From Peribacillus asahii (GTDB lineage Bacteria; Bacillota; Bacilli; Bacillales; DSM-1321), in assembly GCF_004006295.1 (NCBI RefSeq), contig NZ_CP026095.1, positions 2,714,001-2,778,000 of the forward strand: 64,000 nucleotides of DNA, read 5' to 3'. The notes under the pieces were generated by a model, which saw only the letters and a list, made by a program, of their open reading frames with translations, had not been told where the DNA came from and ran no database searches. How positions within the stretch are numbered: position 1 is the stretch's first letter; each line of letters begins with the position of its first letter. Below are positions 18,972 through 58,660 of the stretch, piece by piece. Position numbers and translations under genes: made by a program.

Positions 18972-19213
18972 CTTCTATGAACCTCCCCCTCCTATCGCGT
19001 TTGCGCTTGAGGAGGGGGTTTCTTGTTGTAAGGAATAACCTAGAAGAAACGAAGCAAATGCTTCTAGGTGCACACGACACCCTCCACCGTGGTCATCCTC
19101 TAACAAAGTGTATCGTTTGATAAACTTTAGTGGTGCTTGCGTTAGATGTTTCCCAACGCATAAGGGGCGGTTCTACCCATCTAACTACGTCCTTTTGGCG
19201 GAAAAGCTTCTTC
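18972..19213 (-). ncRNA. Putative omegaRNA and right end of the first tnpB element
   Basis: Downstream of tnpB on the same strand lies about 240 nt of non-coding DNA. It ends in a strong hairpin, AGGAGGGGG (19010-19018) with CCCCCTCCT (18985-18993), then GGTTCAT. In IS200/IS605 elements such a 3' region is transcribed as the guide (omega) RNA that loads onto TnpB, with the guide read from flanking host DNA just past the end. The end at about 18975 is inferred from the hairpin only. Confidence 0.55.
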
Positions 19214-20386
19214 TTACGCCAAAATAACAGGTCGTAGATATGTCGGATGATGAATCTGAAAATAATTCATTTCTCCATATAAAGTTTTTGTCAAAATATT
19301 TCTTGCACCATGAAGGTCACGATGTTCTTGATAACCGCATGTACATGTATAGTTTCTGGTGTTTGATTTTTTACGGTTTCCACAAACAGGACATGTTTGT
19401 GACGTGTACCTTTCGTTCACTTTTTCAATGGCTATTCCTTTTGCTTTTAGTTTATATTCTAAAAGAGAATACAGTTTTCCAAATGACCAATTCGATACCT
19501 TTTGATTGGTCTTTTTCTTTCTTTTCTTTCTATTATTCCGTTGGACACCTTCTACATCTCCCAGTACTACATGACTGACATCATGCTCTAAACACCAATC
19601 TACAAATTGTTTGGTCGTTTTATGTAAGGCATCTTGAAGTTGAGCTTCGCTTTTGGAAAGAGCAAATTTCTTTGCGCGGTTGTACTTTCTCCATTGCCTT
19701 GAGCCCTTTTTACAACGACTCATCCGTTCTTGAAGTTCTTTTACTTTTTTATTTCGTAAACGATGAACACTTCTCATATACCTACCCGTAATCACTATAC
19801 CATCCCCGTTTTCTGTCACACCGACAATCGTATGAATTTCACCAGGGTCGATACTTGCGGTCACTCCTTGTTTTTGGCTCTCTTCTTTCATTCCATCGTC
19901 ATAAGATAAACAAACGAACCATTTGCGGTCAAATACTACTTCTAATTCTTTTACTTTTCCAACAGGGACTTTAGGGAGTCTAAGCGTCAGTTTGGGTTGT
20001 CGTTTTCCGTTCCAATCTCCCATTGAAAGAATGAGTTTCTTTCCCTCTATTTTGAACGCTTGATCCACCCATTTTGGATGGAACACAAATTTATGTCTCC
20101 AAGGATACCGAGTAGGATAGCCTTTTTTACGTGCCTCTTTTGCGGCGTCTCTAGCTTGGAGAAACTTATGTGCGATTGCTTGGACCGTTTGACTATGCAG
20201 AGGATATAAACCTTTCAATTCTTTTTGAAGGTCACTTTTGGTGATCCATCCTCCACCTAAACGATAGTAATAACGGGCCAATTGGACGCAATCATTCCAA
20301 ATCGTCCCCCCTAAACGTCGAATATCAAAAAGGCTTTGGATAGTAGTTGAACTTGCTCGCAAAGGGATCTTCATGGTTCGATACAT
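19214..20386 (-). mobile_element. tnpB: IS200/IS605-type TnpB RNA-guided nuclease (tnpA absent)
   Basis: 390 residues, apparently intact. TnpB is an RNA-guided DNA endonuclease, ancestor of Cas12, that helps IS605 elements persist. The split RuvC centre is complete: Asp in SIDPGEIHTIVG, Glu in VVLGDVEGVQRNN and Asp in CGYQEHRDLHGARN. The zinc ribbon has CPVC and CTCG pairs. A lysine/arginine-rich patch (NNRKKRKKKTNQK) precedes it. No tnpA transposase is adjacent, so this is an IS1341-type single-gene element that would need TnpA supplied elsewhere to move. The start has TTTGGAGGTG before it. The 58-kb truncated copy is of the same subfamily. Confidence 0.9.
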
Positions 20387-31835: not shown

Positions 31836-31995
31836 TTGAACTACCCCCACCTACTCCACTACGTTTCGTTGAGGAGGGGGATTCCTACGTACAAGATTCT
31901 ATCGAACCTTAATGGAGTAGGCGATCCCTGTCGCACCGACAGTTAGCAGTACAAACGACTAACCTAGCAAGTCTCCTGCAAAAAAAAGAATCTAG
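31836..31995 (-). ncRNA. Putative omegaRNA and right end of the second tnpB element
   Basis: About 160 nt of non-coding DNA after tnpB on the minus strand. It ends in a long imperfect hairpin between GAGGAGGGGG (31871-31880) and CCCCCACCTACTC (31844-31856) and then TTCAA at 31840-31836. A second hairpin TGTCGGTGCGACA sits inside. The layout equals the first element and IS605 right ends; the first bases past the end are 9 bp after the SLAP stop codon, so a guide from here would match the SLAP locus flank. Confidence 0.6.
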
Positions 31996-33168
31996 TTAGA
32001 CAGCTAACGCTAATTCTTTTATATTTTTAGATGCGTTCACATCTGCGTTGTCTGTGTGACCGCATTTTTGACACACAAATTCAGCTTGCGATGGACGATT
32101 GGCTTTTTCTGTATGGCCGCAAGCATGACAACGCTGTGAGGTACGCGTAGGATGGACAGCGATGACGGTTTTCCCATACCATTCCGCTTTATATTTGAGC
32201 ATGGTACGGAATTGTGACCAAGATGCTTCACTGATCGCTTTTGCCAGATTGTGATTCTTCCTCATATTCGCTACCTTTAAATCTTCTATTCCGATCACAT
32301 CGTGGTTTTTGATGATTTCGGTAGATATTTTTTGAAGGTAGTCTATTCGTGCGTTCACGATTTTTTCGTGAATACGCGCCACTTTTTTTCGTTGTTTTTG
32401 ATAATTTTTTGCTTCATTTAGTGGCTTCTTTTGTTGAATCGCTCTTTCTTGTCTTCTCGATAAGATCCGTTGTGCTTTCACCAATTTTTCCTCCAGAGAA
32501 CGGAAAAACTTTGGGTTTGAATAGATGGTTCCATCTGACAGAATCGCAAAATCTTTTAGGCCGACATCGATGCCAACAGCCGAATTTGTTTTTGGTAATT
32601 CTGTTCCTTCTACTTTGGTCGTTAGAGAAACAAAATATTTTCCCGATGGATTCCGTCTAATCGTCGCACTCAAAATACGACCGTGTACTTCACGACTTTT
32701 GGCAAAACGAACAAGACCTAGCTTTGGCAACTTGATCTGGTCGTCTATAACAGCGATATTTCCATTCGTATGCTTCGTAACGTAAGACTGGACAGGATTC
32801 TTTTTTGATTTAAAACGTGGTAGCTTATTCTGTTTTTTGTAATATCGACTATAAGCATCCGCTAAGTTTTCCACCGATTTTTGCAAAGCGATACTATCCA
32901 CTTCTTTCAAAAAAGAATACTGTTTCTTTAATTCTGGAAGTTCTTTGATGGTTTCATATTTATTCAAATAGTCCCCTTTCCAATTATTTGAGGAAAGTTG
33001 ACCATTCTGCTTCATTTCTTCTGTGATAAACCAGTAAGCGTCTTTTTCTTTCTGTTTACCAAGAAAGAGATTAAAGACAAATCTTGAACAACCGATTGTC
33101 TTATGGATGAGTTCCCTTTGTTTCTGATTAGGGTATAAGCGAAACTTAAAAGCTTTGTGGATGAACAT
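31996..33168 (-). mobile_element. tnpB: IS200/IS605-type TnpB RNA-guided nuclease (tnpA absent)
   Basis: 390 residues, intact. Start MFIHKAFKFRLYPNQKQRELI is classic for TnpB. RuvC residues are present in GIDVGLKDFA (Asp), IGIEDLKVANM (Glu) and CGHTDNADVNASKNI (Asp); the zinc ribbon has CHACGHT and CQKCGHT pairs. It belongs to a different subfamily from the tnpB at 19.2 kb. No tnpA neighbour. Its promoter (33198-33227) and GGAGGTG ribosome site look functional, and both ends can be recognised, so this is a probably active RNA-guided nuclease. Confidence 0.93.
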
Positions 33169-33197
33169 GGTTGAGCACCTCCTTCACCATTTACCTT

Positions 33198-33227
33198 ATT
33201 ATACCATATGTAAACCCAAGGATACAA
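33198..33227 (-). promoter_or_regulatory. SigA-type promoter of the second tnpB
   Basis: On the minus strand TTGTAT at 33227-33222 is separated by 18 bp from a perfect TATAAT at 33203-33198, 25 bp or so upstream of the GGAGGTG site of tnpB. The same TTGTAT-18-TATAAT pattern stands before the truncated tnpB at 58.1 kb. Confidence 0.6.
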
Positions 33228-33344
33228 ACATATATTCCCTTTTTTAAAAAAATAGTCACTAATCAAAAGGACAAAAGGGATGGTCCTCCTATCATCGTCA
33301 TTTTCTTATGATTCAACCAACAGTCGGACAATCGAGATGGCAAG

Positions 33345-33437
33345 TAAGCCATCCCAATCAGAAGGCGATTCATCCCCTCCCTACTCATCGGGCTATCACC
33401 CTTCACATTCCTTGAGGAAGGGGTATTCTCGCCTATT
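33345..33437 (-). mobile_element. Orphan IS605-type end of another tnpB family
   Basis: Minus-strand sequence GGCGAGAATACCCCTTCC, then AAGGGTGATAGCCCGATGAG and TAGGGAGGGGATGAATCGCC forms a set of stems (GGCGA/TCGCC and CCCCTTCC/GGGAGGGG) and has the GAGAA...GGGGATGA pattern of IS605-like right ends. No tnpB of the matching type lies on its 5' side; an unrelated gene follows. It could be a solo omegaRNA-like remnant. Confidence 0.4.
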
Positions 33438-33539
33438 TTTTTGATAAAAGAAAAATAAAACTTCTAGATTATTACAAGCTAGAACGTGAAATAATAATAA
33501 CAGTGAATACATTGAGTTTTAAGGAGATGCTTTTTACAG

Positions 33540-33731: not shown

Positions 33732-33750
33732 TTTCTACATGTCCCTCCCC

Positions 33751-33831
33751 CTGCCTCTTCCTACGAAGGAATGGTAAGTAATATGGTTGCGAGAAAGAAT
33801 CCCATGGCTTTTTAGCCATGGGATTGGTTAG
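33751..33831 (+). mobile_element. Solo omegaRNA-like element, divergent copy (C)
   Basis: An 81-nt segment from CTGCCTCTTC to GGTTAG is a diverged copy of the two 78-nt elements at 36215 and 58583: it keeps GAGAAAGAA and a strong CCATGGC/GCCATGG hairpin at its end. It sits without any tnpB between the YbxH-like gene and ypbS; its last bases contain the ypbS stop codon (TAA on the minus strand), so the insertion touches the 3' end of ypbS. Confidence 0.65.
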
Positions 33832-34085: not shown

Positions 34086-34322
34086 GATTGTTCACTCCTA
34101 TGATTGGTATAATAGTTAACTTCTATATTAACAAGTTTATATAAAAAACTAAAGAATGAGAATTCCTAATTTTTAATCATTTTTAGCGGGAATTAATTCC
34201 ACGTTCCTGTCCCTCCTAAATATCGGTAATTCAGATAGAAAGAATCCTAGAAATATAAGATGATTTTATTTGTATATACTAGCCATTATCTTTACCTTGA
34301 AACAGCTATTTCATAATACAAA

Positions 34323-34360
34323 GAGAGCTCAGTCTTTAAAGACTGAGCTCTCCTTCCTAT
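34323..34360 (-). terminator. Terminator of the amino acid permease gene
   Basis: A 30-nt perfect palindrome, with arms GAGAGCTCAGTCTTT and AAAGACTGAGCTCTC, lies about 165 bp downstream of the permease stop codon. TTGTATTATG follows on the minus strand. The core resembles the terminator at 17101. Confidence 0.65.
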
Positions 34361-35910: not shown

Positions 35911-36127
35911 GATTGACTCCTTCGAATACAAATTAACGGCTATACTTCTCTATACTAGCTTCTTAATTAATTCTTGATTTATTAGCAAGATTATATATAC
36001 AACCGGTTTCCTATCTTATAATAATAAACAACTCATAAAAATACAAATGTATTTTTCAAAAAAACAAATTCTATTAAAAAACAAGGAGATTCCTTCTCTT
36101 AAGGACAAGCCCTAACAGGAAAAAGTA

Positions 36128-36292
36128 TCGCCGGTCGAACGGCGTAGTTGGCACAGACCTTGCCCACTTGAAAGACTGTTTTTCTCTCAAGTGTTGCTCA
36201 CTCAAGTCTTGCCTCTGCCTCTTCTTATGGAAGGTGGTAAGTGGGGTGTTTGTGAGAAAGAACCCCGTGGCTTTAGCCATGGGAGTGGTCAG
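36128..36292 (+). mobile_element. Solo omegaRNA-like element (copy A)
   Basis: The last 78 nt (36215-36292, CTGCCTCTTC to GGTCAG) differ at one position from the segment behind the truncated tnpB at 58583-58660. Upstream, 36128-36142 forms a small hairpin (CGCCG/CGGCG), and a 3' region of tnpB-like DNA may follow. No tnpB reading frame is left. The sequence ends with a CCCCGTGGC-loop-GCCATGGG hairpin and then diverges from the other copies, as expected at the element boundary, so downstream bases could act as a guide. Confidence 0.65.
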
Positions 36293-36435
36293 AAAAACAT
36301 ATAAAAGGTAGTTATCATCATGAAAATTGGTAAAAAATCAAAAGCTAGATCCATTAATACGGACCTAGCTTTACATAAAAATACTTAATTACCAATAAAA
36401 AACATAAGAGCTATCCTTATTTACGCTAGCCATCA

Positions 36436-57916: not shown

Positions 57917-57964
57917 GTTGTCAACGTTCAAAGTTTTAATTATGTTTTAGTTTTTACCGATTTT

Positions 57965-58020
57965 CCGAACGAGAAAGCCCATTACGGTGTGAGTCACACC
58001 CCCTTTAGGGATGGGATGAG
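57965..58020 (+). mobile_element. Orphan IS605-type end upstream of the truncated tnpB
   Basis: GAACGAGAAAGCCCATTACG, then a GGTGTGA/TCACACC stem, CCTTTAGG and GGGATGGGATGAGAG form nested stems (CCCAT/ATGGG) and the GAGAAAGCCC...GGGATGAGAG pattern seen at other IS605 right ends. Its sequence differs from the 78-nt omegaRNA-like elements of this window. It is probably the end of another tnpB element. Confidence 0.4.
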
Positions 58021-58086
58021 AGTGAGATCGAACCGGGCGTGTTTTATGACACGTCAGAGGTTCGATTTTTTTTATAGGATATACTC

Positions 58087-58116
58087 TTGTATTAAGAACA
58101 AACGTTCTGATATAAT
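58087..58116 (+). promoter_or_regulatory. Promoter of the truncated tnpB with a LexA-like box
   Basis: TTGTAT (58087-58092) and TATAAT (58111-58116) are 18 bp apart. Between them stands AGAACAAACGTTCT (58095-58108), which keeps the GAAC-N4-GTTC core of the Bacillus LexA (DinR) consensus, differing only at the outermost bases. A box in this place would block RNA polymerase. Confidence 0.55.
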
Positions 58117-58150
58117 GAGTGTAAGTAAAAGAGAAAGGAGGCAAAACGAT

Positions 58151-58582
58151 TTGTTTGTCACTCATTCCTTTCAAATTCCTTATGATCGAAACATATACAA
58201 AGAATTAAGAACGATGCAACGAGAAGCAGCCTCCGTTTGGAACGATATCGTGCGGGAAGCTACTTCCTATTATTTTGCTTGCAAAAAGTGGGTAAGTAAA
58301 ACAGAGATTCAAGCCATTCGAAAACAAACCTACAACCTTCATTCGCAAACGGTTCAAGCCATTGCAGATAAATATGCGGCAAACCGTGAAACGATTCGAC
58401 AGCTGAGAAAAACGGATAAAAAAGCCAAATATCCGTGGCGAAGAAAATATTATTATTGTATCCCCTTAAAAAAAGCTTCTATGGACATTTCAACAAACAC
58501 CATCACGATTAAAAAAGTAGACTATGGATTCTCCCTCTCTGACCTTTTAACGAAGAAGAAAAAGAAAAACTGGAACGAAAAT
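58151..58582 (+). pseudogene. tnpB: 5' part of a tnpB, internally deleted
   Basis: TTG 58151 with AAAGGAGGC upstream. Reads LFVTHSFQIPYDRNIYKE, SVWNDIVREATSYYFACKKW and NLHSQTVQAIADKYAANRE, followed by KYPWRRKYYY, closely parallel to the tnpB at 19.2 kb (for example NLHSQTVQAIA against PLHSQTVQAIA). After about 140 residues the coding sequence ends and the omegaRNA-like 78 nt start at once. RuvC residues and zinc ribbon are lost, so no nuclease can be made. An intact right end is kept. Confidence 0.85.
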
Positions 58583-58660
58583 CTGCCTCTTCTTATGGAA
58601 GGTGGTAAGTGGGGTGTTTGTGAGAAAGAACCCCGTGGCCTTAGCCATGGGAGTGGTCAG
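58583..58660 (+). mobile_element. OmegaRNA-like right end of the deleted tnpB (copy B)
   Basis: 78 nt from CTGCCTCTTC to GGTCAG, one mismatch from copy A at 36215-36292. It ends with a CCCCGTGGC/GCCATGGG hairpin. Beyond 58660 the three copies diverge, so this is the element boundary, and the first 20 bases downstream would be the guide if transcribed. Promoter and ribosome site of the deleted tnpB lie upstream on the same strand, so transcription is likely. Confidence 0.7.

Follow-up and report, generated by a model that had tools for sequence, protein, structure and literature searches.

Stand-alone IscB omegaRNAs are guide RNAs that lack a neighbouring nuclease, and the bcr1 repeat of the Bacillus cereus group is a mobile short repeat. 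For TnpB, an omegaRNA that is cut from the tnpB mRNA is described (PMC10278001), and a PATE-like element of Halanaerobium is reported to have a left end of 28 nt, the final 58 nt of tnpB and a right end of 160 nt (PMC7290912). BoxA-type antitermination is reported for rrn operons and CRISPR arrays (PMC12691694). Among the papers listed in searches of an open-licence collection, none dealt with TnpB together with boxA or with a leader of solo omegaRNA elements.

The window analyzed here comprises 64,000 nt of the 4.89-Mb genome of Peribacillus asahii (C1:2714001-2778000) and holds three related copies, designated A, B and C (Table 1). A first-pass annotation had taken a 78-nt repeat in the window for the mobile end of a tnpB family, and this identification was borne out. 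The sequences at 36215-36292 and 58583-58660 differ at a single one of their 78 positions, lie on the plus strand and end in GGTCAG, while 33751-33831 is a diverged relative that ends in GGTTAG and shares 79% identity with the 77-nt query used for the genome search. The repeat is beyond chance: the next-best ungapped match to the 78-mer in the window, located in copy A, reaches 40/78, and the proposed whole-genome search returned 22 places with E-values from 2.7e-34 to 1.0e-10. The length of 78 nt is not itself a unit, since it is an internal deletion that ends copy B at that point and copy C runs 137 nt further left, which rules out a mobile unit of that size. All three copies derive from one IS608-like (IS200/IS605) tnpB family and contain its right end, with A old and decayed, B internally deleted and C 5'-deleted.

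In a right-end lineup, the family comprises full or near-full tnpB elements (L002, L003 and L015 at ~1.66-1.68 kb; L021, a subgroup, at ~1.57 kb), elements with both ends and an internal deletion (L004, which is copy B; L018; L020), 5'-truncated copies (L001, which is copy C; L007, L012, L016, L017, L019; L022, which is copy A), of which L016 retains a scrap of left end, and eight elements of ~440 nt (~443 nt; L005, L006, L008-L011, L013, L014). Of 15 left ends, 13 have TTAC in front, the exceptions being L009 and L011, and right ends read TCAG in 20 of 22 cases, TCAA in L010 and TTAG in copy A, beyond which the flanks vary from copy to copy. Together with the sites of copy C and L010, the latter nearly clean, the TTAC at left ends indicates that the family inserts 3' of a fixed tetramer and does not duplicate its target. 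Subterminal hairpins are found at both ends (the right one in our model and folds, the left one by eye), and the genome contains two matches to Y1_Tnp. By eye, a GAAC ahead of the right-end hairpin mostly goes with a TCAG terminus and a GAAT, in relatives, with TCAA, apart from one TAAA (alignment A2, columns 142-145 and 172-175); this pairing resembles the IS608 rule for TnpA cleavage-site choice, and L010 is an exception that joins GAAC with TCAA.

Table 1. Features of the window belonging to the two tnpB families, in window coordinates.
Feature	Position	Strand	Basis
Second-family tnpB element	31836..33443	-	TTTAT target and TTCAA end, by eye
Second-family omegaRNA	31836..31947	-	Model R2, E 1.2e-20
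Second-family tnpB, 390 aa	31996..33168	-	OrfB_IS605, Cas12f1-like_TNB, HTH_OrfB_IS605
Copy A, old right-end remnant	33749..33831	+	~83 nt align to family 1; same place occupied in G002
Copy C, 5'-truncated remnant of family-1 (IS608-like) tnpB element	36078..36292	+	Homology to L002, L003, L015; edges from G002 site without copy C
Copy C, full 171-nt omegaRNA scaffold / right end	36122..36292	+	Alignment A2, 39/39 model pairs
Copy C, flank in guide position	36293..36312	+	TTTTTAC directly before this flank in G002
TTAC target/TAM beside copy B	57954..57957	+	Read from sequence; same tetramer at 13/15 family left ends
Copy B, element with left end, tnpB 5' part and truncated right end	57958..58660	+	Homology; absent from G002 site
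tnpB 5' part in copy B, joined directly to right end	58151..58582	+	Homology ends at -79 from right end; start by eye
Last 78 nt of scaffold in copy B	58583..58660	+	77/78 identical to copy C

Copy C, at ~215 nt, is 96-97% identical to the ends of the tnpB elements L002 and L003, and it is not wholly devoid of tnpB as first described: the end of the frame is retained, with a TAG at 36145-36147. The suggested comparison of empty sites, made in the relative G002, was informative for this copy. G002 matches its left flank up to 36077 and its right flank from 36293 and has 47 bases in between that end in TTTTTAC, such that copy C is absent beside a TTAC; copy B is missing as well, at a site that is not a clean empty site, and copy A is present. 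We read the history of copy C as a probable insertion beside TTAC and a later deletion of the left flank, the left end and most of tnpB. The guide length is taken as 20 nt. A promoter scan of both strands around copy C found 1 site against 1.8 expected, which is chance level.

The earlier view that copy B follows a deleted tnpB was right in that the 5' part of the gene is present, and incomplete in that the left end is kept too, for an internally deleted element of 57958-58660 in all. Copy A sits between two convergent small frames (one listed, one by eye) and may serve as a terminator. Its counterpart in G002 has an inverted hairpin loop and an 11-nt gap: the hairpin at 33798-33825 carries a TTTTT loop in the window and an inverted AAAAA loop in the relative (L190), as if the palindrome had flipped. 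A role of copy A as a guide RNA was considered and rejected, most of the scaffold being missing. Elsewhere in the window, a strong inverted repeat at 34321-34355 gave chance-level Rfam matches and is probably a terminator.

The annotation had further suggested that all three copies are kept as short elements and could provide guide RNAs for a TnpB encoded elsewhere, with mere scars as the alternative. Because most of the 171-nt scaffold is absent (~83 nt remain in A and 78 nt in B), A and B are scars for which a guide-RNA role is not supported, while copy C keeps the full scaffold; on sequence, it is the only one of the three that could encode a guide RNA. The idea of retention in a short form does not suit A, B or C, which look like products of decay or deletion, but it fits the eight ~440-nt elements elsewhere in the genome.

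A partner gene elsewhere in the genome, which the annotation had called for, was found. Among 16 genomic matches to PF01385, 14 of them over the cut-off, a TnpB gene of the family with its domains is present at two loci: L015 holds one apparently intact open frame, at most 476 codons long, in which OrfB_IS605 and Cas12f1-like_TNB are both matched, and L021 holds an open frame, ~29 codons shorter inside (by eye), that matches the same two domains. L002 shows a short duplication near the start (by eye), and the frame of L003 is broken. The window also contains an element of a second tnpB family, whose ends, TTTAT and TTCAA, were read by eye. Model R2, built from 17 solo omegaRNAs that all came from other genomes, matched the omegaRNAs at four tnpB loci of this second family (L022, in the window, L024, L025 and L032; E 7.6e-24 to 1.2e-20) and also matched L064; weaker matches (E 0.00055-0.014) were obtained at L030, L023 and L031, and none at family-1 loci. 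Another tnpB, L029, lies on the minus strand of the window at 19547-19888 (PF01385, a frame of 392 codons), and an omegaRNA model matches weakly at 18977-19073 (E 0.1).

The ~440-nt elements join the left end and the last ~171 nt of the family to an unrelated interior of ~208 nt and have no tnpB. This interior holds a leader of ~71 nt that is composed of an rrn-boxA-like stretch and two nested stems. The one element tested against G002, L010, is absent there, with flanks that abut but for one base and a site that reads TTAG where TTAC would be expected. With both ends, no gene, eight copies that are 93-95% alike and presence or absence in a relative (L010), these elements behave as non-autonomous elements of the PATE/MITE type; we take it that L010 was probably moved by TnpA in trans. 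We regard the anatomy of the copies and elements set out above as close to certain. Approximately 590 nt from one ~440-nt element, an Rfam match to SpF59_sRNA lies above the cut-off (L006:365-417, minus strand, 74.4 bits).

We then evaluated the scaffold at the right end as an RNA structure. A 39-pair model, drawn by hand from folds of the same sequences, was applied to an alignment of 22 of 33 right ends, a set that does not include copy A; near-identical copies (L009, L010, L011, L018) and truncated ones (L004, L012, L016, L019, L049, L050, L053) were left out. Paired cells amounted to 95.3% versus 93.5% in shuffles and 35-48% in slid controls, and changes on both sides of a pair numbered 24 versus 9.2 (sd 2.2) in shuffles. 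The number of pairs with such changes gave no clear excess (7 versus 5.1, with 53 of 500 shuffles as high), nor did further pair types (22 versus 25.8 in shuffles). A structured scaffold that ends at the guide is present in copy C, which forms 39/39 model pairs, and in the five ~440-nt copies in the alignment, which form 37-38/39; A and B lack most of it. Neither leader nor scaffold matched Rfam at the gathering cut-off or at E-value limits of 1, 0.5 and 0.1. A match to the Rfam family Bacillaceae-1, below the cut-off, lies ~900 nt past the leader of L192.

These observations bear on whether all solo copies, the ~440-nt elements included, are DNA parasites or scars whose ends are kept for TnpA and whose RNA is irrelevant. 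A, B and C are indeed remnants, the right end is a DNA hairpin as well as an RNA one, its scaffold could persist as DNA, and a single founder suffices for the ~440-nt copies because they are so alike. Against this, the whole 171-nt scaffold is retained, beyond the end hairpin, and the leader, which is not a TnpA end, carries many compensatory changes in many genera and occurs inside elements with unlike ends, as detailed below. We consider an account in terms of DNA alone less likely than the reading in which the ~440-nt elements are guide-RNA genes.

The ~71-nt leader recurs at further loci of this genome and genus, mostly in solo elements of the second family, recognized by eye from TTTAT and TTCAA. 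Of 25 extracted leader sequences, 19 were aligned (five near-identical copies and L041 were dropped); in this set 95.5% of cells are paired and both-side changes number 17 versus 4.7 (sd 1.8), and model R1 was built from it. Within the family, R1 located 30 places, spread over 7 of 43 genomes; in a sample of 397 genomes from the order, 31 had matches, representing 22 of 135 genera. The exact leader pattern was found in 75 instances on 74 stretches of named genomes from genera that include Peribacillus, Exiguobacterium, Priestia, Domibacillus, Lysinibacillus, Sporosarcina and Trichococcus; viral contigs held no match to the pattern, and BLAST with the leader found none in phages and hits in 2 of 72,556 plasmid records. 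We assembled a larger alignment from 68 selected loci, which contributed 69 matches. These loci are 32 pattern stretches out of the 74, 13 loci of this genome and its family, and 23 out of 27 from the order, where two were dropped as short and two as duplicates. In this alignment 95.7% of cells are paired versus 33-53% in slid controls. In these 69 matches, whose alignment was fitted to the model and leans towards it, both-side changes numbered 127 versus 28.9 (sd 5.3) in shuffles, 10 of 13 pairs showed them versus 6.8, and further pair types numbered 31 versus 20.4 (sd 2.0).

Downstream of the leader lie right ends of several dissimilar types (L127/L209, L203/L103/L106, L204/L208 and L211, by eye), and a right-end motif lies 136-225 nt after the pattern in 68 of 75 instances; of the others, four loci end too early and three have no motif. 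RNAalifold, run on 31 non-redundant of 66 extracted solo elements, recovered no structure beyond the leader stems and portions of the omegaRNA. Second-family solo elements such as L117, L119 and L126 have, after the leader, another domain flanked by stems, with GCGAAAACCAAGC as its conserved core; in L206, L213 and L214 this core is located within the leader hairpin (both by eye).

Within this genome, the likeness of the leader to rrn boxA shows in the 15-mer TCTTTGAAAACTGAA, which occurs 12 times, in the eight ~440-nt elements, in the second-family solo element L064 and in three rrn leaders, where it lies 96 nt before the start of the 16S rRNA; the reversed control occurs 0 times. The leader shares this boxA sequence with the host rrn leaders, and the genome holds no further occurrence of it. 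For the 12-mer boxA core, 23 sites were counted versus 7 for its reversed control, a background that makes the core uninformative. From this likeness we suggest, tentatively and at somewhat short of an even chance, that the leader is antitermination-like. It may instead be a domain for RNA processing, stability or protein binding that has no part in antitermination, its resemblance to rrn boxA being due to chance or shared processing: the likeness is short, and the covarying stems and a conserved inner loop (GGTT and GTAAAA, at 81-97% in the 36 rows outside the exact pattern) exceed boxA. This alternative is a real possibility that we would nonetheless not call probable, as every one of the 12 exact 15-mers falls in a leader of either kind and the boxA positions are themselves 72-94% conserved in those 36 rows. 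A -10-like hexamer (at least 5/6 matches to TATAAT) lies within 70 nt upstream of the leader in 62 of 74 instances versus 44.5% of control windows. A consensus promoter scan of one ~440-nt locus found 5 sites versus 1.7 (sd 1.2), none of the five listed being the -10-like box just before boxA.

Solo loci were also searched for a nearby nuclease by tblastn with 11 TnpB and TnpA proteins of this genome, a query set that could miss a distant TnpB. No match fell within 1 kb of the 75 pattern instances, as far as the loci reach, and 3 of the 75 loci had one anywhere, some loci ending close to the leader. None occurred in the 30 R1 loci of ~3 kb, and the 27 order loci yielded one, ~1.1 kb upstream (L196). 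The nearest PF01385 match to the nine leaders of this genome is 44-330 kb away.

The family has, in this genome, a non-autonomous form that carries a structured leader of ~71 nt in the place of tnpB, ahead of a full omegaRNA. A Y1 transposase would move the ~440-nt elements in trans, an internal promoter would drive an untranslated RNA, and the leader would act on it as an rrn/nut-like antitermination or stabilizing site. TnpB made elsewhere would bind the omegaRNA and cut emptied TTAC sites, and nuclease-less elements would therefore be kept too. To this explanation as a whole we assign a probability of roughly 50%; for the use of the guide RNA in trans, taken by itself, we see the odds as evenly balanced. 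The solo RNAs could also be directed at host genes or further targets instead of the empty sites of their own elements, as regulatory guides or plain small RNAs. Solo copies do outnumber the apparently intact tnpB genes of the family in this genome; the flanks nonetheless differ between copies, as expected of guides to insertion sites, and we consider such targets improbable.

Behind the three copies of the window is an element that is widespread, carries a putative guide RNA but no nuclease gene, and has a leader under structural constraint. More speculatively, and as a proposal that we hold possible rather than probable, IS605-type non-autonomous elements of Bacillales may have captured an rrn/nut-like leader in the place of tnpB as an exchangeable module, giving stand-alone guide-RNA genes that would recruit TnpB in trans, retain nuclease-less elements and parallel boxA at CRISPR arrays. 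If true, OMEGA guide RNA and nuclease live as separate mobile genes, a step towards CRISPR-like organization. The leader and omegaRNA together form a searchable RNA motif for finding and testing trans-acting guide RNAs, and the three reported copies are explained without mistaking deletion scars for functional elements.

The likeness to bcr1 and to stand-alone IscB omegaRNAs is one of description. IS200/IS605 elements of the IS608 type agree with this family in the left TTAC, the TCAG or TCAA right end, the hairpin ends, the TnpB domains (OrfB_IS605 and TNB) and an omegaRNA located at the right end. The family differs in that an intact tnpB is lacking from most of its 22 copies, and the ~440-nt form has the leader instead. 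As in boxA antitermination, a boxA-like stretch lies near the start of an untranslated RNA, here through a 15-mer common to three host rrn leaders, whereas the nested stems are absent from the host rrn leader as read here and the function in this setting is a putative one. The TnpB omegaRNA (PMC10278001) likewise places the scaffold at the 3' end of tnpB followed by a guide from the flank, but in the solo elements there is no tnpB from which such an RNA could be cut. PATE-like elements (PMC7290912) share both ends, a part of tnpB in the right end and the lack of a gene, and the ~440-nt elements differ from them by their conserved structured interior, their multiple copies and their relatives in many genera.
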